Shown here piece after piece: positions 1 to 17,731 of a stretch of DNA of 64,000 bases. Source of the DNA: Actinomycetota bacterium (GTDB lineage Bacteria; Actinomycetota; Acidimicrobiia; Acidimicrobiales; AC-14). The translations under genes were made by a program, and so were the position numbers. The notes below the pieces were generated by a model. The model saw nothing but the letters and a program-made list of their open reading frames with translations, did not search any database and was not told the DNA's origin. The DNA lies in assembly GCA_040754375.1 (NCBI GenBank), contig JBFMCT010000010.1, forward strand, positions 1 to 64,000, read 5' to 3'. Within the stretch, counting starts at the first letter, position 1. Each line of letters opens with the position of its first letter.

Positions 1-184
1 CGGGGTGGGCGGGGCCGGGGTGGGCGGAACCGGGGTGGGCGGGGCCCGGGTGGGCGGGGCCCGGGTGGGCGGAACCGGGGTGGGCGGGGCCGGGGTGGGC
101 GGGGCCCGGGTGGGCGGAACCGGGGTGGGCAGAACCGGGGTGGGCGGGGCCCGGGTGGGCGGGGCCCGGGTGGGCGGGGACGGG
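1..184. repeat. 15-bp in-frame tandem repeat (minisatellite), running off the left edge
   Basis: About twelve copies of a 15-bp unit of the type gtgggcggggccggg fill positions 5-184 and continue past the window start. Copies differ mainly at the last codons of the unit. The unit is a multiple of three, so it reads in frame with the downstream glycosyltransferase as VGG plus two variable residues (AR, TG or AG). It has no spacers and is not CRISPR-like. It is probably a slippage-prone low-complexity linker or leader. Confidence 0.85.
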
Positions 185-1138
185 GTGGCGGTGGTGGTGC
201 CGACGCACCGGCGGCCGGAGTTGGTCGTGGGGGCGGTGGAGGCGGCGCTGGGCCAGACGGTCGCAGTGGACGAGGTGGTGGTCGTGGTCGACGCCGACGG
301 GGGTGGGGCCGAGGAGACCGAAGCCGCCCTGTCGGCCATCGGCGACCAGCGCGTGCGGGTGGTGCGCAGGCCGGGACGGGGCGGCCCGTCGCAGGCCCGC
401 AACGCGGGAGTGGCCGTCACCTCGGCCCCGTGGGTGGCCTTCTGCGACGACGACGACCGCTGGCTGCCGTCCAAGCTGGCCCGCCAGCTCGACGTGCTGG
501 CCCGCGCCGGATGGCCGCCCGACGCGGTCGTGTCCACCGGCGTGGTGGCCCGTAGCCCGGGCTCGGAGTACCGGTGGCCCAAGAGGTTCGTCGACGGGAC
601 CAGGTCGGTGGGCGAGTACCTGTTCTGCACGCGGACACCGTTCCAGGGTGAGACGCTCCTGCACACTTCCACGCTGTTGGCCTCACGATCGCTGCTGGAG
701 GCCGAACCCTTCGACGAGACCCTGCGCAACCATGAGGACTGGGACTGGCTGGTCCGGGCCGCCGGGCGGGGAGCACGGTTCCTGGCCGTTCCCGAGCACC
801 TGGCCGTCTGGCACATCGAAGAGGACCGGCCCGGGCTCACGGCCGTCACCGGCGACTGGGAGCGTTCGCTGGCCTGGGCCGGGCGCCAGCGGGGACGGCT
901 CGGCGAGCGCGCCTACTCGGCCTTCTGCCTGACCGTCGTGGCCGGCCGGGCCCGGGCCTCGGGATCGGCCCGGGGTGTGGGGGCTGCGCTGGTGGCCGCC
1001 TTGGGAGGCTCACCCCCGGTGCGCAACCTCCTGTGGTTCCCGTTCTACGCCGTCCTCTCGCCGGGTGTGCGCCGCCGGCTCCGGGCCCGTCTCACCTCCG
1101 CCCGGCTACCTTCGGGACGATGGTCCGCACGATCGTAG
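5..1138 (+). CDS. Family 2 glycosyltransferase, 5' end uncertain (window edge)
   Basis: The catalytic domain starts at about position 185 with [14 protein letters not shown], the typical beta-strand start of a GT-A fold family 2 enzyme. It continues with a long acidic strand, an RNAG motif (SQARNAG) and a DDDDRW nucleotide-sugar/metal-binding cluster. Such enzymes transfer a sugar from a nucleotide sugar to cell-surface polymers or lipids; the substrate cannot be read here. The preceding 60 residues are pure pentapeptide repeat, so the true start may be the GTG at 185 or lie left of the window. The stop overlaps the next gene by 19 bp, suggesting co-transcription. No membrane segment is evident. 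Confidence 0.8.
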
Positions 1139-2705: not shown

Positions 2706-3704
2706 TCAGGCGAGGGGGGCGAGGCGGGTGGTGGTGGCCACGGCGTCGAGGCCGGGGCCGCCGGAGGTGGCGGGTTCGGCGGGCTGGAAGTCGTGGCGGC
2801 CGGCGAGGGCGGCCACGACTGCGGCCGACGAGTTGGCCAGCGCGTCGAGGTCGTAGCCGCCCTCCAGCACGACCACGCACCGGCCCGGGGGGACGAGTTC
2901 GGCCACCCGGCGGGTGAGGGCCGCGTAGTCGCCCGAGGTCAGGCCCAGAGCGGTGTCCTCCAAGATGTCGTCGCGGTGGGAGTCGAAGCCCGACGACACC
3001 AGGGCCCACGTCGGCTCGAACCGGGCCGACACCCGCCCGACCACGTCCATGGCCGCCTGGTACACGTCGCCGGTGGCCCCGGGGGGCAGCGGGAAGTTGA
3101 CCGTGTGACCCGCGCCCGGGCCGGTCCCCGTCTCGTCGGCCCCGCCCGTGAACGGGTAGAGGGGCCACTGGTGCATCGACACGTAGAGGACGCGGTCGTC
3201 GGCGTAGAAGAGGTCCTGGGTGCCGTTGCCGTGGTGGGCGTCCCAGTCGACGACCAGTACGCGTTCGCCCCGGGCGGCCAGGGCGGCCGCCCCCACGGCC
3301 ACGTTGTTGAACAGGCAGAAGCCCTGGGCCTGGCCGGCGGTGGCGTGGTGGCCCGGCGGCCGCACCGCGCAGAATGCGGCCCGCTGGCGTTCGCCGGCAT
3401 CCAAGACGGCCCCGGCCGCGGCCAGCGCCGCGTCCCACGATCTGGGACCGGCTCCCGTGTCGAGGGTGAGCATCCCCCCGCCCCGTTCGCTGAAGCGGCG
3501 CACGGCCTCGATGTGCCCGGGGTCGTGGACCAGGGCCACCTCCTCGACGGTGGCCGCTCGGGGCGTGACCCACTCCACGTCCGCCCCGAGGCCGGCCGCT
3601 TCGATCCCAGCCACCACCGCCCGCAGCCGGGCCGGCCTCTCGGGATGGCCGGGGCCGGCGTCGTGGCCCAGCCCCGCGGGCGGGTACTCCACCACGGCGG
3701 ACAT
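2706..3704 (-). CDS. Histone-deacetylase-family (class II type) zinc amidohydrolase
   Basis: The 332-residue product has the complete arginase/deacetylase signature: GHPERPARL near residue 20, RPPGHHA (two catalytic His) near 115, DWDAHHGNGTQ (Asp and His zinc ligands) near 150, a GFDSHRDD motif (second Asp ligand region) near 243, and EGGYD with the transition-state Tyr near 280. These enzymes hydrolyse acetyl-lysine, acetylpolyamine or acetoin-type substrates. The length matches bacterial class II-like members. The start at 3704 places GHPERP at the usual distance from the N terminus. It is divergent from the GNAT gene, an acetyl-adding and acetyl-removing neighbour pair, although a link is only inference. 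Confidence 0.92.
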   Translation of the reverse strand: MSAVVEYPPAGLGHDAGPGHPERPARLRAVVAGIEAAGLGADVEWVTPRAATVEEVALVHDPGHIEAVRRFSERGGGMLTLDTGAGPRSWDAALAAAGAVLDAGERQRAAFCAVRPPGHHATAGQAQGFCLFNNVAVGAAALAARGERVLVVDWDAHHGNGTQDLFYADDRVLYVSMHQWPLYPFTGGADETGTGPGAGHTVNFPLPPGATGDVYQAAMDVVGRVSARFEPTWALVSSGFDSHRDDILEDTALGLTSGDYAALTRRVAELVPPGRCVVVLEGGYDLDALANSSAAVVAALAGRHDFQPAEPATSGGPGLDAVATTTRLAPLA

Positions 3705-3749
3705 GGGGCGGAAGCTACCCGGCGGGGCCGGGGCCTATCCTCTCGGCAG

Positions 3750-4460
3750 GTGTCTACACGGTCGGCTGTCCTGGAGTGGGGCCGCGAGCGCTTGCGTGTC
3801 GGCCGCTGGCGGAGCGACAGCCGGACCGCCATCCTCTCGCCGGCCGGGGAGAGCGCGCTGCTCTCGCGGTCGTTCATCGAGCGCTGCCTGAAGACCCTGG
3901 CCGACGAGGGCTACACGTCGGCTGTGACCGCCGCGTTGTCCCGCACCGAGCAGGCACCGTTCCTGGCCGCAGGCTTTTACGAGCACGAGCGGCTGCGGTT
4001 GCTGAGCCACGACCTGCGCCGGGCCCCGGTCGTGCGTGACGCCCCCCTGCGGCGCGCCCTCGACCATGACCACCCGGCCGTACTGGCCGTGGACGCGGCC
4101 TCCTTCAGCCCCTTCTGGCAGCTCGACGAATGGTCCCTGCGGGAGGCCATCGAGGCCACTCCGTCGACCCTGTTCAAGGTGGCGGTGGACGGGGCCGACC
4201 AGGTCGTCGGCTACGCCATCGCCGGCCGGACCCAGCGCCGGGGCTACCTCCAGCGCCTGGCCGTCCACCCCGACTGCCAGCGCCTCGGGCTGGGCGCCGC
4301 CCTGGTGGCTGACAGCCTGCGCTGGATGCGCAGGCGGGGCGTCGAGCGGGTCGTGGTCAACACCCAGATGGGCAACGAGGCGGCCCGGCGCCTGTACGTG
4401 CGCCTGGGGTTCAGGGAGGAGCGCGACAGCCTGGCCGTGCTGCGCTACGACCTGCCATGA
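3750..4460 (+). CDS. GNAT-family N-acetyltransferase
   Basis: The C-terminal half carries the GNAT acetyl-CoA site: VVGYAIAGRTQRRGYLQRLAVHP followed by QRLGLGAALVADSL (motif A, Q/RxxGxG/A) and the motif B region NEAARRLYVRLGFRE. The N-terminal ~100 residues are a less obvious second domain that may be a degenerate GNAT fold. I chose the GTG at 3750, which leaves a short gap to the divergent HDAC-like gene. The stop overlaps the next start (ATGA, 4457-4460), so it is translationally coupled to the DUF6049 gene. This pair stands at the head of the actinobacterial origin-proximal block. Confidence 0.85.
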   Translation: MSTRSAVLEWGRERLRVGRWRSDSRTAILSPAGESALLSRSFIERCLKTLADEGYTSAVTAALSRTEQAPFLAAGFYEHERLRLLSHDLRRAPVVRDAPLRRALDHDHPAVLAVDAASFSPFWQLDEWSLREAIEATPSTLFKVAVDGADQVVGYAIAGRTQRRGYLQRLAVHPDCQRLGLGAALVADSLRWMRRRGVERVVVNTQMGNEAARRLYVRLGFREERDSLAVLRYDLP

Positions 4461-6421
4461 GGGCCCAGCCCACGAGCGCACGCGCCCTGCTGGCGGTGGC
4501 GTGCGCCGCCTTGGTGGCCGTCCTGGCCCCCCCCGTGACAGGGGGCGGAGCTACGGCCCACGCCCAGGCCCAGGTGCCCCGGCGCATGACGCTGGTGAGC
4601 CAGAGCCCCTACGTGGGACCGGGCGCCGACCTCGTCTTCCGCCTTCGCGTCGAGCGCAGCGGCCTTCCCGCGGGCAGCGAGGTGGTGGTCACGGTCTACC
4701 GGCCCGTGCAGACCCGCTCGGAGTTCGCCCAGACCCTGGAGGACCGCATCGGGCGCCCGGCCGCCCTCGAACCGCACCGGGTGGCTTTGGCCGCGGTCAC
4801 GCCCGAGGCCAACGGGGATGTCACCGTGCGGGTGCCGGTGGGCGAGCTGGGCGAGACCAACGGCGTGTTCCCCACCCGGGTCGACCTCCGCGACCCGGCG
4901 GGCACGCTGGAGCGGATCACCACCCACCTCGTCTACCTGACCAGCGCTCACGCCGGGCCCAAGCTCGGGCTGGCCATGGTCCTGCCCGTGCACGCCCCGG
5001 TGTCGCTGCCCCCCGACGGCCAGCGCCGCCTGGCCGGCTTCGACGACCTCGTCACCTCGGTGGCCGCGCTGGAGGCCAACCGGTCCCTGCCCTACGTCGT
5101 CCAGGCCACGCCCGAGACGGTGGCCGCCCTCGCCGCCAGTACCGACGACCGCGCCGACCGGGTGCTGGAATCGCTGCGCCGCCTGGGCATCGACCACCCC
5201 GTCGTGACCCGGCCGTTCGTGGGGGTGAACGTGCCCGACCTGGTGGCCGCCGGTCTGTCGAACGAGCTGGGCCACCAGCTCATCCACGGGGCCGAGGTGC
5301 TGACCGACGCCTTCGTCCAGCGGCCCGACACCCGCACGTGGGTGGAGACCGGGCCCCTCGACCCCGAGTCGGTGGACGAGCTCATCAGGCGGGGGGTGGC
5401 CCACTTCGTGGTGGCCGACTCGATGCTGGAGCCGGTGCCCGAGCTCAACGTCACGCTGAGCCGGCCCTTCGTGCTGGGCGGGCGGGAGGAGGACGCACCC
5501 GCGGTGGCGGCCGACACCGACCTGTCGGCCCGGTTCAACGCCGAGCGGGACCAGGTGCTCGAGGCCCACCACCTGCTGGCCGACCTGGCCGTGCTGTGGC
5601 TGGACGCGCCCGCCGACCGCCGGGCGGTGGTGGCCGTGGCCCCCCCGGGGTGGAAGGCCACGCGTGCCTTCCTCGACGTGCTGACCGCCGGCCTCACCCA
5701 GAACCCGGTGATGGAGGCGGTGGCCGTCGAGACGGTGTTCACGGCCGTCACCCCGGCGCTCGCGGGCCGCGGCCTGGGGCTCGTGCGCCACCCGGCGCCC
5801 GCCAGCCCCGGTGCCCTCGACGAGGTCGCACCCGCCATCCGCCAGGCCCGAGGCCGCCTGGCCTCGTTGGCCACCGTCCTATCGCCCGCACCACCCAGCA
5901 TGGCCCTTCTCCAGGAGCGTCTGCTGGCCGCCCAGTCAGCCGAACTGGGCGACAGCCGGGCCCGGCAGGCCTACGTCGACGCCGTCGAGACGGGCATCGC
6001 CGACCAGTTGGGCGCCATCGAGATGCCCACCGGCCGCTCCATAACACTCACCGCCCGCCAGGCCCAGATCCCCGTCACCTTCCAGAACCGCACGGGCTCG
6101 CCCGTCAAGGTGCTGGTGACCGTGCAGAGCGACAAGCTGGAGTTCCCCGACGGGTCGACCCGCTCGCTCGACCTGGAGCGGCGCAACACCACCGAACGCT
6201 TCGAGGTCCTGGCCCGTACGTCGGGTGCCTTCCCGCTGCGGATCACGCTCCAGTCCCCTGACGGCAACCTGCTCATCGGCCAGGCCCGCCTCACCGTGCG
6301 CTCGACGGCTGCCTCCAGCGTGAGCCTTGTCGTGTCGGCCGGGGCGCTGTTCTTCCTGGCTGTCTGGTGGGCACGCCACGTCGTCAGGGGCCGGCGGGCG
6401 GCCCGTCTCGTCCCCGCGTGA
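4457..6421 (+). CDS. DUF6049 family secreted, membrane-anchored protein
   Basis: This 654-residue protein begins with a signal peptide (ARALLAVACAALVAVLAPP, cleaved near AHAQA) and ends with a single transmembrane segment (VSLVVSAGALFFLAVWWA) and a basic tail, so the body is extracellular. The size, topology and place between a GNAT gene and the kinase/sigM/trxB block match the DUF6049 protein that sits just before murJ/mviN in actinobacteria (Rv3909-like). It is thought to act with cell-envelope assembly, but no activity is known. Here murJ is missing downstream. A strong hairpin follows the stop. Confidence 0.8.
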   Translation: MRAQPTSARALLAVACAALVAVLAPPVTGGGATAHAQAQVPRRMTLVSQSPYVGPGADLVFRLRVERSGLPAGSEVVVTVYRPVQTRSEFAQTLEDRIGRPAALEPHRVALAAVTPEANGDVTVRVPVGELGETNGVFPTRVDLRDPAGTLERITTHLVYLTSAHAGPKLGLAMVLPVHAPVSLPPDGQRRLAGFDDLVTSVAALEANRSLPYVVQATPETVAALAASTDDRADRVLESLRRLGIDHPVVTRPFVGVNVPDLVAAGLSNELGHQLIHGAEVLTDAFVQRPDTRTWVETGPLDPESVDELIRRGVAHFVVADSMLEPVPELNVTLSRPFVLGGREEDAPAVAADTDLSARFNAERDQVLEAHHLLADLAVLWLDAPADRRAVVAVAPPGWKATRAFLDVLTAGLTQNPVMEAVAVETVFTAVTPALAGRGLGLVRHPAPASPGALDEVAPAIRQARGRLASLATVLSPAPPSMALLQERLLAAQSAELGDSRARQAYVDAVETGIADQLGAIEMPTGRSITLTARQAQIPVTFQNRTGSPVKVLVTVQSDKLEFPDGSTRSLDLERRNTTERFEVLARTSGAFPLRITLQSPDGNLLIGQARLTVRSTAASSVSLVVSAGALFFLAVWWARHVVRGRRAARLVPA

Positions 6422-6490: not shown

Positions 6491-7330
6491 ATGAGCGTGC
6501 ATATCGTCACCGACAGCGGCTGCGACCTCCCTTGGGAACTGGTCGATTCCCACTCGATCTCGGTCGTGCCCCTGACGGTGAGGTTCGGGGCCGAGGAGCT
6601 GGTGGCGGGCCGCGACCTGTCGCCGTCGGACTTCTGGTCGCGCTGCGAGGCGTCACCCACCTTGCCCGAGACGGCCGCACCGTCACCGGGTGCCTTCGAC
6701 CAAGTGTTCCGGGCGGCGGCTGAGGCGGGGGCCGACGGGGTGGTCTGCATCAACCTGTCGTCGCGCCTGTCGGCCACCATCCAGGCCGCCCAGGCGGCGG
6801 CCAAGGGAGTGGCCGACGTCGTGCCCGTGCGGGTGGTCGACTCGCTGTCGGCCACTCTGGGGGAGGGCCTCATCGTGCTGGCTGCGGCCCGGGCCGTGGC
6901 CGCCGGGGCCTCGCTGGCCGACGTGGTGGAGACGACCGAGGCGGCCGTGGCCAAGACCAACGTGGTGGGCACCATCGACACCCTCGACTTTCTCAAGAAG
7001 GGGGGGCGCATAGGCGGTGCCCAGGCCCTGCTGGGCTCTCTCCTGTCGGTCAAGCCGGTGATCGTGGTGGTCGACGGCAAGGTCGAGCCCGGGCCCAAGG
7101 TGCGCACCCGCACCAAGGCCCTGCGCCACGTAGCCGACCAGGTGGCCAACGCCCCCGGCAAGGTCGAGCACCTGGCCGTGCTCAACGGGGCGGCCGCCGA
7201 CCTCGACCAGTTCCTCGACATGCTGGGCGAGAACTTCCCCCGCGACCAGATCGTGGTGGGTGACATCGGGCCGGTGATCGGGGCCCACACCGGCCCCGGC
7301 ACCATCGGCGTCGCCTTCCAGGTGGCCTGA
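6491..7330 (+). CDS. DegV family fatty-acid-binding protein
   Basis: The 279-residue product begins with the DegV opening VHIVTDSGCDLP and contains the hallmark lipid-contact and dimer motifs: INLSSRLSATIQAAQAA near residue 90, VVDSLSATLGEG near 118, and LDFLKKGGRIGGAQALLGSLLSVKPV near 160-185. DegV/FakB proteins present a fatty acid to a fatty-acid kinase (FakA). No fakA is visible in this window. The length equals the family norm. It stands alone behind a terminator, upstream of the thioredoxin-like lipoprotein. Confidence 0.93.
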   Translation: MSVHIVTDSGCDLPWELVDSHSISVVPLTVRFGAEELVAGRDLSPSDFWSRCEASPTLPETAAPSPGAFDQVFRAAAEAGADGVVCINLSSRLSATIQAAQAAAKGVADVVPVRVVDSLSATLGEGLIVLAAARAVAAGASLADVVETTEAAVAKTNVVGTIDTLDFLKKGGRIGGAQALLGSLLSVKPVIVVVDGKVEPGPKVRTRTKALRHVADQVANAPGKVEHLAVLNGAAADLDQFLDMLGENFPRDQIVVGDIGPVIGAHTGPGTIGVAFQVA

Positions 7331-9012: not shown

Positions 9013-10890
9013 CTACGTGGCCGGGCGGTCGAGTTGGGAGCGGAAGTGGTCGCGCTGGGAGAGCAGGAACCGGCGGTAGGAGCCGACGAGCAGGTCGACG
9101 GTGCCCAGGTCGCCCTCGTAGCCCTGAGGGAGCCCGGCCGCCCGTAGGAGCGTGCCTGCCCGCTGAGAGGGCGCGCTGGTGAGCCCGAACCAGCCCGCCA
9201 GGTCGCGGGCCATCATCTTGTGAGGTCCGAGCGTGAACAGGTTGTTGGCCCGGGCCACGGCCCAGCAGATGGCGGCCGCGGCGGTGTCGGCCCGGGCCTT
9301 GCGGCGGAAGACGGCGGGGTCGCCGGACGCCGCCCGGGCCAGGATGCGCCGGCAGGCGGTGCGGTACTCGGTGGTCAGGCGTTCGTCACAGAAGCGGTCG
9401 CACAGCGACAGCACCTCGTCGACCTTCGGGCGGATGTCGTCGGGCGTCCCGGTCCAGTCCATGGGTTCGTCGGGCAACGGCCGGTCGTCGAGGGCGTCGA
9501 GGACCGCCTCGCCCCCGACCTCGCGGGCCAGGTACGCGAGCCGGCCCCGAGCGTTGTCCTGGGCCCATCGACCCTCTCTCCAGTAGGCCTCGTCGTCGAA
9601 GTCGGCGTCGAAGTCGTCGTCGAAGTCGTCGTCGAACTCGTCGTCGAACAGGCCGGGCTCGCCCCTCATGGCGGCCATGGCAGCCAGGATGGCCTCCGCT
9701 CCCTGAGGCCGGGGCGACCGGATGGTGCGTTGGTAGGCCGGCTCGAAGCGGTCGACGGCTGCCAGGGTCTCGGCTGTGAGGGCCGGTGTGATGGCCCGCT
9801 CGGCGTGGCAGAAACGGATGAAGGCGCGCAGCACGTCCGGGGCCTTGGCCAGGTAGGCGGCATCGGCCATGATCTTGCGGGGCACCCAGTCCTCCAGCAC
9901 GATCTCGACGGCCACCGGGCTCCAGCGCAAGGGGTCGCCCGGCCCGTAGCCGGTGCCGAACCACAACAGGTGCTGGACGAAGTCCTGCTGGTCGGGGTCG
10001 AGGGCGGCGGCCATGGGCGAGGCCAGGAACCGGTCCCGCAGGTCGTCCTGGTCCTGCTCGCTCCACTCGGGCCGCACGTAACCGGTCCCCCCGGTCGGCA
10101 GCAGGCCGGCCATCCACTCGACCAGGGCCATGGCCGCCGGCCAGGTCTCGGTCTCGATGCGGGGAACGGTCATGGCGCCCCGGGTGATGGCCTCGGTGAT
10201 GCGGGCCCGGGCGTCGGCCGGGTCGAGGTCAGCCCACCGGGTGTCGGCGTCGGCCCCCGCCGCCTGACGGAAGAACGCCACGACCCCCGTGGTGCCCTCC
10301 GGTAGGACGAAGGCGTCCTTCACCAGGGAGCCGAGGTTGTGGTCGATGTAGACCACGGCCGTCATCTCGTGCCCGGTGGGGAACCGGGCCCCGATCAGCA
10401 CGTTGTCCCCGTCCCCGAGGACGTGGGTCATCTCCATGGTCTGGTAGGCCTCGGCCTCGCCCATGCGGACCAGCCAGGCCGGCAGGTCGTCGGCCCGGGC
10501 GGCCAGCTCCCGGCGCACCCGGGCAGCCAAGAGCTCGTCGCCCAAGAGGTGGGAGACAGCAGCCAGTAGGGCGCTCGTCTCCCGCCGGCGGACCTCCAGC
10601 ATGGCCGCCAGCAGGCCGTCTCGACCCAGGGTCTCGTCGCCGTCACGGTCGAAGGGGTCGTCGGTGCGGGGGTCGACCACGGCCAGCAGTGTGCTCGCAT
10701 GGGCCAGCAGCCCCAGGGGGTGGTCGTCAGCCAGGGCCTCGGCCACCTGGTCCATGAGCCCCGGGCCGTCGGCGGGATGGTCGGCGGGGCCGTCGTCGTA
10801 GGGGCTCTCGCCCGAGCGGTGGGTGCCGGGCGGGCGTGTCCCCTTGGGGGTGGTGCGTCCGCCCCGGCGGTGGCGTCCCTTCCTGCCCAT
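9013..10890 (-). CDS. Large hypothetical protein with a DUF6398-like C-terminal domain
   Basis: The 625-residue soluble product is acidic in the middle and has no signal peptide. Its last ~110 residues (VDEVLSLCDRFCDERLTTEYR through AICWAVARANNLF to LAGWFGL) resemble the DUF6398 domain. Near residue 430 there is a striking run of DDEFDDDFDDDFDADFDDE, a tandem acidic repeat. The basic N-terminal leader (GRKGRHRRGGRTTPKGTR) is probably disordered. It converges on ccdA with almost no gap. The function is unknown; an RNA- or protein-binding role suggested by the acid/base segments is only a guess. Confidence 0.7.
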   Translation of the reverse strand: MGRKGRHRRGGRTTPKGTRPPGTHRSGESPYDDGPADHPADGPGLMDQVAEALADDHPLGLLAHASTLLAVVDPRTDDPFDRDGDETLGRDGLLAAMLEVRRRETSALLAAVSHLLGDELLAARVRRELAARADDLPAWLVRMGEAEAYQTMEMTHVLGDGDNVLIGARFPTGHEMTAVVYIDHNLGSLVKDAFVLPEGTTGVVAFFRQAAGADADTRWADLDPADARARITEAITRGAMTVPRIETETWPAAMALVEWMAGLLPTGGTGYVRPEWSEQDQDDLRDRFLASPMAAALDPDQQDFVQHLLWFGTGYGPGDPLRWSPVAVEIVLEDWVPRKIMADAAYLAKAPDVLRAFIRFCHAERAITPALTAETLAAVDRFEPAYQRTIRSPRPQGAEAILAAMAAMRGEPGLFDDEFDDDFDDDFDADFDDEAYWREGRWAQDNARGRLAYLAREVGGEAVLDALDDRPLPDEPMDWTGTPDDIRPKVDEVLSLCDRFCDERLTTEYRTACRRILARAASGDPAVFRRKARADTAAAAICWAVARANNLFTLGPHKMMARDLAGWFGLTSAPSQRAGTLLRAAGLPQGYEGDLGTVDLLVGSYRRFLLSQRDHFRSQLDRPAT

Positions 10891-10952: not shown

Positions 10953-12473
10953 GTGCCCGACTCGCCTCGCATTGACGCCGAGCGCGTCCTTGCCGGGCGG
11001 TACCGGCTCGGCCGCCCCATCGCCCGCGGGGGGATGGCCGAAGTCTGGGAGGCGTCCGACGAGGTGCTCGGGCGTCCGGTGGCCGTGAAGGTCCTGCTGC
11101 CCCACCTGGCCTCGGACGGTTCGTTCCTCGAGCGGTTCCGGCGCGAAGCGGTGGCCGCCGCCCGGCTGGCCCACCCCAACGTGGTGGCCACCTTCGACAC
11201 GGGCGTGGACGACGGAGTGGCCTTCATCGTCATGGAACTGGTCCACGGCCGGACCCTCTACGAGGTGCTGGCAGCCAACGGCCCCCTGCCCCCGGCGCGG
11301 GCTACGGGCATCGCCGTGCAGGTGGCCGACGCCCTCGACTACGCCCACCGCCACGGCGTCGTCCACCGCGACGTCAAGCCCGGCAACATCCTCCTGGGCG
11401 ACGACGACACCGTGAAGGTGGCCGACTTCGGGATCGCCAAGGCGGCCGCCGAGCCGCGTTCACCGGCCGGTGGGGACGGTGACCTCACCCAGGCGGGGGC
11501 GGTCGTGGGCACGGCCAAGTACCTGTCCCCCGAGCAGGTCGACGGGGCCGAGGTCGACGGCCGGGCCGACATCTACGCCTTGGGGGTCGTGCTCTACGAG
11601 ATGCTGTGCGGCCAGCCTCCGTTCGTGGCCGACAGTGACATAGCCGTGGCCCTCAAGCACAAGACGGCCCGCCCCCTCAGCCCCCGCCAGTTGAGGGCCG
11701 GCATCCCCCGCTCGCTCGAAGCCGTGGTGATGCGGGCGCTGGCCAAGTCGCCCGACGACCGCTATCCCCACGCCGCCGAGATGCAGACCGCCCTGCTGTC
11801 GATCGACCTGGGCCCCGACGACGCCGTGCCTCTGGTGGTGAGGGAGCCCACACCGCCCGAAGGCGTGCGGGTGCCGACCTTCGGCCAGAGCGAGCGGTCG
11901 TGGCTGTGGCCGGTGGGCCTGATCATGGTGATGGCGGTCGCCCTCGGGGTGATCGGTGTCCTGTTCGCCACCACCGACACCGGCCAGCGGTTGTTCAACC
12001 CGGGTTCGGAGGAGCAGGCGCGCCCCGTCCCCGTTTCGATCGTCGAGGCCCTGTCGTTCGACCCCCCTCCGGGGTCGGGCGGCGAGCACGACGACCGGCT
12101 CCCCCTGCTGCTCGACGGCAACCCGGCGACGGTGTGGACCACCGAGACCTACGCCAACCGCCGGCTCGGAGGGCTCAAGGACGGGGTCGGTGTCGTCCTG
12201 GTGCTCGACCGCCCAGCCGTCGTGCGGGAACTGTTGCTGAGCACTCCCAGCCGAGGCTGGAACCTGCGGGTGTACGTGGCCGACGGCCCCAAGGCCTCTC
12301 TGGCCGAGTGGGGCGACCCGGTGGCCAGCCGCAACAACGTGAACAGGCCCGAGATCGAGCTCGACCTCCACGGCCGGCAGGGCCAGGCCGTGCTCGTGTG
12401 GATCACCGACCTCGGCCCCGACCTACGGGTGGCCATCGGCGGCGCCCGGGTCACGGCCGCGTCAGATGGCTGA
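10953..12473 (+). CDS. PknB-type Ser/Thr kinase fused to an MviN-type extracellular tail
   Basis: Residues 10-275 form a complete Hanks-type kinase: glycine loop (GRPIARGGMAEVWEA), VAVKVLL lysine, HRDVKPGNILL near residue 138, DFGIAKA near 158 and an APE-like PEQ region (GTAKYLSPEQ). A single transmembrane helix (WLWPVGLIMVMAVALGVIGV) is near residue 317. The outside portion (FDPPPGSGGEHDD..., LDGNPATVWTTETY, GLKDGVGVVLVL, VWITDL) matches the discoidin-like tail at the C terminus of actinobacterial MviN (Rv3910), where it follows a MurJ flippase and a pseudokinase. Here the kinase keeps its catalytic residues and no flippase is encoded. GTG start; the stop overlaps the sigma gene by 8 bp. Confidence 0.88.
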   Translation: MPDSPRIDAERVLAGRYRLGRPIARGGMAEVWEASDEVLGRPVAVKVLLPHLASDGSFLERFRREAVAAARLAHPNVVATFDTGVDDGVAFIVMELVHGRTLYEVLAANGPLPPARATGIAVQVADALDYAHRHGVVHRDVKPGNILLGDDDTVKVADFGIAKAAAEPRSPAGGDGDLTQAGAVVGTAKYLSPEQVDGAEVDGRADIYALGVVLYEMLCGQPPFVADSDIAVALKHKTARPLSPRQLRAGIPRSLEAVVMRALAKSPDDRYPHAAEMQTALLSIDLGPDDAVPLVVREPTPPEGVRVPTFGQSERSWLWPVGLIMVMAVALGVIGVLFATTDTGQRLFNPGSEEQARPVPVSIVEALSFDPPPGSGGEHDDRLPLLLDGNPATVWTTETYANRRLGGLKDGVGVVLVLDRPAVVRELLLSTPSRGWNLRVYVADGPKASLAEWGDPVASRNNVNRPEIELDLHGRQGQAVLVWITDLGPDLRVAIGGARVTAASDG

Positions 12474-13113
12474 CACCCGGCCCGGGCGGTACACGTCCCG
12501 TACCGACGGCGACCTGGTGGCCGCCGCCCAGGGGGGCGACCGGGGGGCGCTGGAGGCCCTGCTCGAACGCCACCATGACCGGCTCCACGCCCTCTGCCGG
12601 CGGCTGACGGGCAACGACGCCGACGCGGCCGACGCCACCCAGGAGGCCCTGATAGCCGTCGTGAGGGGGTTGGCCCGGTTCGACAACCGCTCGTCGTTCA
12701 CGACCTGGGCCTACCGGGTCGCGACCAACGCCGCCCTCGACGAGCTCCGGCGTCGGCGCCGGCGCCCCGAGCCCGGCCTGCCCGACGGTCCCGGGGCCCG
12801 GCCGGCCGGGGGGGCCTGGGGGGTGGCCTCGCCCGGGGGGGAGGGCACCGTCGAGCAGGCCCTCGAACGCATGGACATCGACGCCGCCCTGGCCCGCCTG
12901 CCGGCCGACTTCCGGGCCCCTGTGGTCCTGCGCGACCTGTGCGCGCTGACCTACGAGGAGATCGCCGACGTTCTCGACCTACCTCCGGGCACGGTGCGGT
13001 CCCGCATCTCACGGGGCCGGGCCGCCCTGGCCGAGCTGATCGCCCCCGAAGGGAACCGGGAGCCTCCCGCCCGGCGTCCAAACACCAGACCGTCGACAGA
13101 GAGACATCCGTGA
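12466..13113 (+). CDS. sigM: ECF RNA polymerase sigma factor in the sigM position
   Basis: The 215-residue protein has sigma region 2 (DLVAAAQGGDRGALEALLERHHDRL to DATQEALIAVVRGLARFDNRSSFTTWAYRVATNAALDELRRR) and region 4 (ALARLPADFRAPVVLRDLCALTYEEIADVLDLPPGTVRSRISRGRAAL), joined by a Gly/Pro-rich linker. ECF factors redirect RNA polymerase to stress promoters. Overlaps with the kinase before it (8 bp) and the anti-sigma gene after it (4 bp, GTGA) show one coupled operon. Position and partners match sigM-rsmA of actinobacteria; the symbol is by context. Confidence 0.9.
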   Translation: MADTRPGRYTSRTDGDLVAAAQGGDRGALEALLERHHDRLHALCRRLTGNDADAADATQEALIAVVRGLARFDNRSSFTTWAYRVATNAALDELRRRRRRPEPGLPDGPGARPAGGAWGVASPGGEGTVEQALERMDIDAALARLPADFRAPVVLRDLCALTYEEIADVLDLPPGTVRSRISRGRAALAELIAPEGNREPPARRPNTRPSTERHP

Positions 13114-14587: not shown

Positions 14588-14905
14588 TTGTCCGACAGCA
14601 ACGGCGCCGGCCAGGAGCCCGACTGGGCCGCTGAGACGGTCGGTCGTCTCGAGGAGTTGATCGACAAGGTCCGGACGCAGACGACCGACCGGGTCGTGAT
14701 GGTCGCCCGGGCCGTCGTCTACGGCCTGCTGGTGGCTGTCTTGGGGCTCATGGCCGGCATCCTGCTGCTCATCGCCTCGGTCCGCGCCCTCGACGCGCTC
14801 ATCCCCCAGGAGGTGTGGCTCACCTACCTGATCGTCGGGGCAATATTCACGGCGGCTGGACTGTTCGTCTGGTCCAAGAGGCAACCCCGCACGGAGGGTG
14901 CGTGA
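14588..14905 (+). CDS. Small membrane protein, phage-holin (DUF1469)-like
   Basis: The 105-residue protein has a charged N-terminal amphipathic stretch (ETVGRLEELIDKVRTQTTD) followed by two transmembrane helices (VVYGLLVAVLGLMAGILLLIA and TYLIVGAIFTAAGLFVW) and a short basic tail, the typical holin-X/DUF1469 layout. TTG start. It overlaps trxB by 4 bp (GTGA), so it is translationally coupled to the thioredoxin reductase. Such proteins are frequent in front of actinobacterial trxB but their role is unknown. Confidence 0.75.
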   Translation: MSDSNGAGQEPDWAAETVGRLEELIDKVRTQTTDRVVMVARAVVYGLLVAVLGLMAGILLLIASVRALDALIPQEVWLTYLIVGAIFTAAGLFVWSKRQPRTEGA

Positions 14906-15849
14906 ACGACGATATCGAAGAGGTCATCATCATCGGCTCGGGACCGGCGGGCCTGACGGCCGCCATCTACACGGCCCGAGCCAACCTGCGCCCCCTGATG
15001 CTGGAGGGCGAGCTCACGTCGTCCTCCGACCAGCCCGGCGGCCAGCTCATGCTCACCACCGAAGTCGAGAACTACCCGGGCTTCGTCGACGGCATCCAGG
15101 GCCCCGACCTCATGGCTAACTTCCGGGCCCAGGCCGCTCGCTTCGGCACCCGCATCGTCACCGAGCGGGCCGAGCGGGTCGACTTCTCGTCCCGGCCCTT
15201 CGGCGTGTGGACGCGCGACAACGAGTACCGCGCCCATTCGGTGATCATCTCGACCGGAGCCCAGGCCCGCATGCTGGGCCTCGAAGCCGAGAAGCGGCTG
15301 CTGGGCCATGGCTTGTCCACGTGCGCCACCTGTGACGGCTTCTTCTTCCAGGGCCTGCCCATCGCCGTCGTGGGCGGCGGGGACTCCGCCCTCGAAGAGG
15401 CGCTGTTCCTGACCAAGTTCGGCCAGAAGGTGTCGGTCGTGCACCGGCGTGACTCGCTCCGGGCCTCGAAGATCATGCAGGAGCGGGCCTTCAAGAACGA
15501 AAAGATCGAGTTCGTCTGGGACACGGTCGTCACCGACCTGGTGGGCGACAAGCGCCTCGAAGGCGCCCAACTGCGCAACGTCAAGACGGGCGAGCAGTCG
15601 GTCCTGGCGGTGAGCGGCCTGTTCGTGGCCATCGGCCACGTCCCCAATACCGGCTTGTTCGCCGGCCAGCTGGCCCTCGACGCCAACGGCTACATCCTCA
15701 CCCACGACGGGACCCGTACCAGCGTGGAGGGCGTCTTCGCGGCCGGGGACGTACAGGACCACGTCTACCGCCAGGCCATCACGGCCGCCGGCTCCGGCTG
15801 CATGGCGGCCATCGACGCCGAACGGTGGCTGGAGGACCAGAAGGACTAA
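14902..15849 (+). CDS. trxB: Thioredoxin-disulfide reductase
   Basis: The 315-residue flavoprotein reduces thioredoxin with NADPH in the cytoplasm. Visible motifs are the FAD-binding GSGPAGLTAAIYTARA near residue 11, the redox pair CATC at residues 141-144 inside STCATCDGFFF, the NADPH site VVGGGDSALEEALFL near 155, and the closing FAD motif GVFAAGDVQD near 275. Length is normal for the low-molecular-weight class. The GTG start overlaps the previous gene. trxA follows after 130 bp with its own ribosome site. Confidence 0.97.
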   Translation: MNDDIEEVIIIGSGPAGLTAAIYTARANLRPLMLEGELTSSSDQPGGQLMLTTEVENYPGFVDGIQGPDLMANFRAQAARFGTRIVTERAERVDFSSRPFGVWTRDNEYRAHSVIISTGAQARMLGLEAEKRLLGHGLSTCATCDGFFFQGLPIAVVGGGDSALEEALFLTKFGQKVSVVHRRDSLRASKIMQERAFKNEKIEFVWDTVVTDLVGDKRLEGAQLRNVKTGEQSVLAVSGLFVAIGHVPNTGLFAGQLALDANGYILTHDGTRTSVEGVFAAGDVQDHVYRQAITAAGSGCMAAIDAERWLEDQKD

Positions 15850-16373: not shown

Positions 16374-17159
16374 TCAAGCTGTGGACACCGGCGCGGGCCG
16401 GCAGCTCAGGCACGGCCGGTAACCAGCGTCGGCGGCCAGTTGCGCGCTCGGGAACATCACGCGGTGGGCGGGTGTGCTGCGGCGGACATGGTGGCACGTC
16501 GGCAGGCAGAACACCCCGGTCGTGGTCACCCCCGTGAAGCGGGCCCCGGAGGCCGCCAGGCGGGCCAGTTCGTCGAGGTCGACACCCTCAGCGGCCAGTA
16601 GGCGGCGCTTGGCGTCGGGGCCGAGGGCGTAGTTGCCGATGTGGCCGTCGGTCCTGACCACCCGGTGGCAGGGGACAAGCACCGGGACCGGGTTGCGGCC
16701 CAAGGCCGTGCCCACCGCCCGGGTGGCTCCGTGGTGGCCGACCTCGCGGGCCACCCACCCGTAGCTGCGGACCTGGCCCCGGGGGATCTGCGCCGCCTTC
16801 TCGAGCACGGCCCGCTGGAACGGCGTGCAGCTCGACAGGTCACACCTAGGCGTCTTGCCGCCACTGAGCGCGCTCAGGAGCGCCCGCGGTAGGGGTGTGC
16901 CTGGGGGCGCTCGGTGGAGACGGCGCTGGGGGTAGCGGGCCGCGAAAGCCTCGGCGAACTGGTGTTCGTCGTCGGGGGACGCAGTCACGGCTGGAGCGAC
17001 CAGGCTGGCCCCCGCCTGGCCGAAGGCCACCCGCAGCGGCCCCGTCGGGCCGTCGACCACCAGTTGCAGGTCGGCCAGGCCGGTGGCCGCGTCCACTCTG
17101 GCCGCCAGGCTGGGTGGGGCGGGACTGGCCAGGAGGGCCAAGGCGGCTTCGAGGTTCAT
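16374..17159 (-). CDS. O6-methylguanine-DNA methyltransferase fused to a C-terminal Ada zinc domain
   Basis: Residues ~20-190 form the alkyltransferase: an N-terminal 1N-type domain, then FQRAVLEKAAQIPRGQVRSYGWVAREVG, ALGRNPVPVLVPCHRVVR with the acceptor Cys in PCHRV, and GNYALG. Residues ~205-258 are an Ada-type methylphosphotriester domain with four Cys zinc ligands (GVFCLPTCHH and PCLSCRP). In the classical Ada protein the zinc domain is N-terminal and the alkyltransferase C-terminal; here the order is reversed and the AraC HTH is absent. The start overlaps the sigma gene stop by 4 bp (ATGA), so both are co-translated. Confidence 0.9.
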   Translation of the reverse strand: MNLEAALALLASPAPPSLAARVDAATGLADLQLVVDGPTGPLRVAFGQAGASLVAPAVTASPDDEHQFAEAFAARYPQRRLHRAPPGTPLPRALLSALSGGKTPRCDLSSCTPFQRAVLEKAAQIPRGQVRSYGWVAREVGHHGATRAVGTALGRNPVPVLVPCHRVVRTDGHIGNYALGPDAKRRLLAAEGVDLDELARLAASGARFTGVTTTGVFCLPTCHHVRRSTPAHRVMFPSAQLAADAGYRPCLSCRPAPVSTA

Positions 17160-17731
17160 GGTCGGTCCTCCAGTCGGTCACGCATGGCGGCCAGGGCACG
17201 GGAAACCTGGGCTTTGACCGTACCCTCGGGCCTGCCCAGCACCGCCGCCGTCTCAGCAGTCGAGCAGCCGATCACATGGCGGAGGACCACCGCCTGGCGG
17301 GCGGCCAGCGGCAGGGAGGCCAGCGCGCCAGCCAGGTCGAGGCGGTCCGAGGCGGTCACCGCCGGGTCGGGATGAGAGCGCAAGGGCGATGGTCGCCGTC
17401 CGTCGTCCATCGGTACGGTCGTGCGGCAAGAAGCGGTTCGCAGGTGGTTTCGCGCCACGTTGAGCGCGATCGTCAACACCCATGGTCGTAGTTCGAGGGA
17501 CGCGGTCCGCGACGGCGAGTAACTGCGAAGAGCCTTGTGGGCGCGTACGAAGGCGTCCTGGGCAATGTCCTCGGCCGCCGACGCGTCGCTCACCCGCCGG
17601 GCGAGTGTGAACACGTCCCCCCCGAACCGGTCCACGAACGCCGGGAAGGCCCCGTCGACATCGGCGGCCAGGTCCGCGGCCAGGTCGGCGGCCAGGTCGG
17701 CGGCGAGGTCGGGGCCTGGCCTCTGGTCCAT
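17156..17731 (-). CDS. ECF sigma factor coupled to the alkyl-repair gene
   Basis: The 191-residue product has sigma region 2 (FVDRFGGDVFTLARRVSDASAAEDIAQDAFVRAHKAL, WVLTIALNVARNHLR) and region 4 (LASLPLAARQAVVLRHVIGCSTAETAAVLGRPEGTVKAQVSRAL). The N terminus carries a DLAA tetrapeptide repeated four times (12-bp repeat near 17660-17710). No anti-sigma gene adjoins; the partner is the MGMT-Ada protein, which could sense alkylation. No promoter for it could be assigned. Confidence 0.88.
   Translation of the reverse strand: MDQRPGPDLAADLAADLAADLAADVDGAFPAFVDRFGGDVFTLARRVSDASAAEDIAQDAFVRAHKALRSYSPSRTASLELRPWVLTIALNVARNHLRTASCRTTVPMDDGRRPSPLRSHPDPAVTASDRLDLAGALASLPLAARQAVVLRHVIGCSTAETAAVLGRPEGTVKAQVSRALAAMRDRLEDRP

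Follow-up and report, generated by a model that had tools for sequence, protein, structure and literature searches.

We analyzed a 64,000-nucleotide stretch of DNA (the window) from an Actinomycetota bacterium of the Acidimicrobiales, positions 1 to 64,000 of contig JBFMCT010000010.1, in which a gene for a transmembrane Ser/Thr kinase with an outer tail domain lies within a conserved gene block (Table 1). The genes run in the order DUF6049, DegV, a putative CcdA/DsbD-like membrane gene (DsbD_TM match below cut-off), a gene on the opposite strand, kinase-tail, SigM-like sigma factor, probable anti-sigma factor, and trxB; parB, parA, rsmG, and yidC follow beyond trxB on the opposite strand. DUF6049, the sigma factor, and trxB thus flank the kinase in the block's order, and murJ is absent from beside it. 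The ATG of the sigma gene (12466) overlaps the kinase stop by 8 bases, and the GTG start of the following gene in turn overlaps the sigma stop. We infer the anti-sigma identity of that following gene from the sequence, since the open reading frame (ORF) has no Pfam or NCBIfam match.

Three other genes of the window deserve mention. The opposite-strand gene that separates the kinase from the DegV/CcdA-like genes (9013 to 10890, minus strand) contains DUF6398. A second extracytoplasmic function (ECF) sigma factor gene (17156 to 17731, minus strand) adjoins parB less than 5 kb from the first. At the window's edge, a glycosyltransferase-like ORF (5 to 1138, plus strand) begins, as called, with a run of repeats, and its start is probably misplaced.

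Table 1. Features of the gene block around the kinase-tail gene (window coordinates)
Feature	Position	Strand	Evidence
DUF6049 protein, conserved block member	4457..6421	+	PF19516, E 9e-23; block map
DegV-family protein, in this taxonomic order often between murJ and kinase	6491..7330	+	PF02645, E 4e-78
Transmembrane Ser/Thr kinase with MviN-type, CBM32-like outer domain	10953..12473	+	506 aa, GTG start
Kinase domain, residues 17-280, catalytic motifs intact	11001..11792	+	Pfam PF00069, PDB, and NCBIfam matches
Single transmembrane helix, residues ~319-339	11907..11969	+	Hydropathy, predicted
Outer C-terminal domain, residues ~357-506, MviN-tail family, CBM32/F5-8-type-C fold	12021..12470	+	Predicted model, profile homology
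SigM-like ECF sigma factor	12466..13113	+	PF04542/PF08281; NCBIfam best SigM NF007225, E 7e-41, below cut-off
Probable anti-sigma factor, HxxxCxxC, one transmembrane helix	13110..14213	+	Read from sequence
Thioredoxin reductase trxB, conserved block end	14815..15849	+	TIGR01292, 401 bits, over cut-off

The kinase-tail ORF ends with a stop codon at 12471 to 12473, and its frame holds no start other than the GTG at 10953 ahead of the kinase domain. Pfam Pkinase (PF00069) matches residues 17 to 271 (E 1.3e-46), and the catalytic motifs are VAVK (43 to 46), HRDVKPGN (138 to 145), and DFG (158 to 160). An alignment of 32 sequences from the same order, including that of the window, shows K46, E65, H138-R139-D140, N145, and D158-F159-G160 to be invariant. 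The protein therefore has the residues of an active Ser/Thr kinase (K46, the C-helix E65, D140, N145, and D158), and we conclude that it is probably catalytically active. The initial annotation had remarked on the retained HRD, DFG, and VAVK lysine, which is true here and in most of the related genomes. With VAVK, HRDVKPGN, and DFG intact, the kinase falls outside ActPs3, a class defined by fully degraded catalytic motifs (PMC12599244). The nearest PDB sequences are PknB chains (E 1e-72). The NCBIfam PknB equivalog NF033483 scores 386 bits, below its cut-off of 450, and matches residues 10 to 285 only; a Pfam/NCBIfam search found no PASTA repeats in the outer region, which sets the protein apart from PASTA kinases.

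In Mycobacterium tuberculosis, MviN (Rv3910) unites a MurJ flippase, the ActPs3 pseudokinase, and an outer carbohydrate-binding domain in one protein (PMC12599244; PMC10166564; see also Gee et al. 2012, as cited in both). PknB phosphorylates Thr947 of the mycobacterial MviN pseudokinase, and FhaA binds it (PMC10166564, PMC12599244). The window ORF has no MurJ match and is thus not an MviN fusion protein, but it resembles MviN in its homologous kinase fold, its one membrane helix, an outer domain that is homologous and has a matching predicted fold, and the DUF6049/sigM/trxB block. It differs in having the catalytic lysine, HRD, and DFG in place of VALT and LSIDHPSR, and in that the FhaA-recruiting Thr947 region is unrecognizable.

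No Pfam family matched the window tail above cut-off, and a PDB sequence search with the tail gave no match. Its AlphaFold model (pLDDT 95) is a CBM32/discoidin beta-sandwich whose best PDB match in a structure search was the AlyQ CBM32 (5xnr; Z 16.4, rmsd 2.3 over 127 residues); Foldseek also paired the model with 4a42 (E 7e-7). Based on this predicted model, the tail has the fold of the CBM32/F5-8 type C superfamily, but it differs from known members in its low identity (~13%), the missing Pfam match, and a signature of its own. When modeled separately, from an alignment mixing fused and unfused members, the tail of fused MviN (pLDDT 90.7) again had 5xnr as its best PDB match (Z 14.8).

Profile searches linked the two tails directly. 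An Acidimicrobiia-tail profile retrieved MurJ fusions of 1,198 to 1,523 aa (E 1e-16 to 1e-22). We consider these to be true MviN because their pseudokinase parts match PDB 3oun, 3uqc, and 3otv (E ~1e-109; annotated "probable conserved transmembrane protein") and because their VALT and LSIDHPSR motifs agree with the tabulated M. tuberculosis MviN motifs (PMC12599244). In the reverse direction, a profile of nine fused MviN tails had a single match in the window's genome, the kinase-tail gene itself (E 1e-17), and profile-profile comparison of the window-type and MviN tails with hhalign gave 99.8% and E 8.5e-28. Fused, unfused dead, and active members have in common the consensus D..T-x-W-x-T-[ED]-x-Y...K-x-G-V-G, represented in the window by D388..T393-W395-T397..Y400..K409-G411-G413. 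A scan of contigs with a narrower tail alignment found close relatives in Acidimicrobiia/Acidimicrobiales records. Together, these sequence comparisons argue strongly that the window tail is homologous to the mycobacterial MviN tail, as the initial annotation had proposed. That annotation had also named kinship to discoidin domains in general as the outcome that would undo its reading. A discoidin-type (CBM32) fold is indeed predicted for both tails, and the sequence kinship is specific to MviN.

The commonness of the CBM32/F5-8C fold and the closeness of the kinase domain to PknB would also suit an ordinary PknB-type kinase that acquired a generic discoidin/CBM32 module independently, with no special tie to MviN. 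We regard such an origin as very improbable given the single match of the MviN-tail profile in the genome, the strength of the profile-profile alignment, the presence of W-x-T-[ED]-x-Y...K-x-G-V-G in all three kinds of member, and a gene order that is the same as at the MviN locus.

To place the gene in context, we retrieved neighborhoods of kinase-tail genes from relatives and from across the phylum, obtaining 131 usable loci that were hand-picked from search results and are thus a nonrandom sample. The usual slot is DUF6049-murJ-kinase-tail-sigma-trxB-parB-parA, with DegV between murJ and the kinase in the window's taxonomic order; 95 of the 131 kinase-tail genes occupy it, and 36 lie outside. 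Of the 95 slot loci, 45 have murJ as a separate gene, 9 have it fused, and 37 lack it, with the remaining 4 undecidable. The joining of MurJ, pseudokinase, and tail in one protein was seen, among the genomes sampled, only in the family containing mycobacteria; elsewhere in the Actinomycetota sampled, kinase-tail is a separate gene in the slot. The flanking genes of the actinobacterial block are therefore as the initial annotation described them, but the MurJ-pseudokinase-tail fusion that it took as the norm is confined to that one family.

These findings fit with published accounts in part. Extended MviN has been reported only from arabinogalactan-bearing bacteria, and a "protein kinase family protein" gene often lies downstream of unextended mviN in Actinobacteria (PMC10166564, the latter from the S6 Fig legend). 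The window gene, unfused and in the same slot, most likely belongs to the same family as that protein; unlike our analysis, the legend gives no MviN-type tail, catalytic status, or spread outside the slot. ActPs3 kinases other than MviN are stated to lack a carbohydrate-binding domain (PMC12599244). The unfused dead kinases in our sample carry the MviN-type domain and may or may not count as ActPs3 under that definition.

All five catalytic residues are present in 96 of the 131 tail kinases, where "active" means that these residues are there, even though the surrounding motifs have already decayed in a few (L173 and L143); the set is incomplete in the other 35, including all nine fusions. By context, active and dead kinases number 25 and 20 in slots with a separate murJ, 0 and 9 in fusions, 32 and 5 in slots without murJ, and 35 and 1 outside the slot. 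Raw counts suggested that adjacency to murJ might cause kinase decay, a relationship that independent pairs on the tree did not support.

Phylogenetic analyses, mostly of quick trees, bear on how the fused form arose. In the kinase-tail tree, the nine fusions form one clade (SH-aLRT 100), all with dead kinases, and this clade groups with unfused dead kinases of families f75, f84, f87, f103, and f105 (SH-aLRT 91, under the star level). Five of these six families, f75, f80, f84, f87, and f103, likewise have slot MurJ proteins that make up one clade (support 99 in one tree and 100/100 in another), as expected if murJ and the kinase descended together there. With the fusions a single dead clade that groups with unfused dead kinases and a matching slot MurJ clade, the dead state probably preceded fusion. 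Well-supported branches of the kinase-tail tree force at least six changes between intact and degraded kinases, which suggests that catalysis was lost several times. Families f90/f93 display stages of decay from HRD through HGD to HGN. Within f93 (L142, L143, L158, and L193), the motif pairs HRDIK/DFG, HGDIR/DFA, and HGNIR/DFA occur with the tail and position kept. Two slot kinases from the window's order (L053 and L055) have also lost catalytic residues, apparently separately from mycobacteria, and their joint placement may be a long-branch artifact. A kinase-only tree with a PASTA outgroup contained several very long pseudokinase branches, and the PASTA kinases did not form a clean outgroup; we used this tree as a caution only.

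Separate, active kinases occur throughout the phylum, and all the fusions fall in a single derived clade. The ancestral form was thus most likely a kinase both separate and active, from which the MviN pseudokinase was derived, with the direction from active to dead resting on the plausibility of loss rather than on a root. An "ancestral split" was accordingly the better of the two guesses in the initial annotation, the other being a decoupled regulator of lipid II export. A split-off murJ is not peculiar to this genome, since many relatives, some in the same family, have a separate murJ shortly upstream of the kinase.

The repeated loss of catalysis, including the stepwise decay in f93 with tail and position kept, raises the possibility that the window protein, for all its catalytic residues, is mainly a scaffold phosphorylated by PknB and read by FhaA, as happens in mycobacteria, in which case losing catalysis in other lineages would have made little difference. 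The partners for such a role are at hand. In the window's genome, one cluster on another contig (C60, L221) contains fhaA (FhaA_N plus FHA), an FHA protein, and a PP2C phosphatase, and PASTA-domain frames occur on two contigs. Set against this are the complete catalytic residues of 96 of the 131 kinases and of 35 of the 36 copies outside the slot, and we consider a mainly scaffolding role quite unlikely. We could recognize no clear equivalent of the MviN phospho-acceptor region in the window protein, whose linker lacks T-x-x-[ILV]. We considered this linker motif as a forerunner of MviN Thr947 and rejected it; its enrichment in active families is weak (19 observed versus 13.7 expected, n = 43), and the linker parser misplaced several of the sequences counted.

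The flippase reported missing from the locus is absent from both the block and the window contig, where we found no MurJ (PF03023). A genome-wide search recovered two murJ genes on other contigs, C13 (frame of 622 aa, protein of 578 aa) and C44 (frame of 757 aa, protein of 542 aa). Neither has a kinase or tail, so the complete murJ with its own tail that would have spoken against the initial reading did not appear. The C44 MurJ belongs to a second paralog clade present across the family. Its ORF (1351 to 2979 in L002) neighbors an ORF at 2976 to 4124 whose product by eye resembles an MctB/SteB-type membrane protein, and the divergent murJ on C13 adjoins an ORF (143 to 1249 in L001) for a probable L,D-transpeptidase, recognized by eye from an SHGCVRM motif.

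The C13 MurJ groups with those of four genomes (G003, G004, G006, and G008) that also lack a slot murJ and are sisters of the window in the kinase tree. Three other family members, those with a resolved slot, retain a slot murJ, which is nested in the order's slot clade; the C13 type falls outside that clade (100/99), and its placement as sister to the clade is weakly supported (87/79). We rejected a simple relocation of the slot gene to C13, since a tree constrained to keep the C13-type and family slot MurJ together was rejected (p-AU 0.00018). Because the C13-type MurJ stands apart from slot MurJ and the sister genomes have no slot murJ, we conclude that the slot gene was lost once in the window's subclade, with a divergent murJ present instead. 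Judged from these sequences, the absence of murJ from the window's block is a later event within the subclade. The C13-type MurJ may be an old paralog or a transfer.

That 37 of the 95 slot loci have no murJ indicates that the kinase does not need a neighboring murJ. The sigma gene is a more constant companion of the kinase than murJ is, lying directly 3' of the kinase gene in 76 of the 95 slot loci and in 36 of the 43 without an adjacent murJ under a 5-kb rule. For this reason, the strongest rival interpretation is that the kinase chiefly regulates its co-transcribed SigM-like sigma factor and anti-sigma factor, sensing the envelope and tuning the regulon by phosphorylation, with the link to murJ being historical. 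The overlaps of a few bases between kinase, sigma, and probable anti-sigma genes in the window and the retention of the kinase where murJ is gone fit this interpretation. Three points weigh on the other side, namely, that no sigma gene accompanies the copies outside the slot, whose neighbors are pknB, ddl, pbpA, and fhaA, that the mycobacterial fusion joined MurJ rather than a sigma factor, and that the putative anti-sigma gene matches no anti-sigma family. On balance, we judge regulation chiefly of the sigma factor unlikely, if the most credible of the alternatives.

The copies outside the slot bear on function as well. A PASTA kinase gene lies near 18 of these 36, versus none of the 95 slot loci; ddl is nearby in 13 of the 36 and pbpA in 13, often also with fhaA and a PP2C gene. 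These neighbors place many members of the family with peptidoglycan synthesis or its kinase. Active-type kinase-tail genes beside pknB, pbpA, ddl, PP2C, and fhaA, as in L147, L148, L167, L175, and similar loci, constitute a second conserved home, with the order in L147 being fhaA, PP2C, an unmatched ORF, pbpA, pknB, ddl, and kinase-tail. The window protein itself resembles the PknB/PASTA kinases in having the closest kinase domain by sequence, one membrane helix, an outer sensor region, and related copies in the pknB cluster, but its outer region is of the CBM32 type.

Based on these observations, we favor, with somewhat better than even confidence in the explanation as a whole, that the window gene is an unfused and probably active ortholog of the pseudokinase-plus-tail half of mycobacterial MviN and that its best functional reading is a sensor kinase controlling peptidoglycan-precursor supply, with activity, ligand, and substrate being those we infer below. 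The outer domain would bind a cell wall saccharide or a lipid-linked precursor, and binding would change the dimerization or activity of the kinase, which in its active form may phosphorylate itself or partners. Its targets would be proteins that set the precursor supply, with MurJ, FhaA-bound partners, and the co-transcribed sigma/anti-sigma pair as candidate substrates. Catalysis would have been lost in an ancestor that mycobacteria share with several related families; in the mycobacterial line, the dead-kinase gene would then have been fused to murJ, turning a kinase into a phospho-acceptor scaffold for FhaA. The window's lineage would have lost the neighboring murJ and kept the kinase in place, with a divergent murJ elsewhere serving the cell.

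More tentatively, and at rather less than even confidence, we extend this sensor-kinase reading to the whole phylum. Active sensor kinases with CBM32 ectodomains would read wall saccharide or lipid II and set precursor flux throughout; they would have been killed repeatedly, with one remnant fused once to MurJ, and the window kinase would work with a MurJ that is not descended from its old neighbor.

No discoidin-type kinase from actinobacteria came up in a literature search. What appears to be new is that the tail is shared, that most members of the sample have intact catalysis, that decay occurred repeatedly and was followed by fusion, that the family has a second home close to pknB, and that murJ changed in the window's lineage. 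The MviN pseudokinase is a well-studied bacterial pseudokinase and a control point of mycobacterial cell wall synthesis. Our data suggest that its tail is far older and more widespread and is usually carried on an intact kinase, with fusion to MurJ having come after the death of the kinase. The ancestral active form allows the signal read by the tail and the former substrates of the switch to be sought directly.
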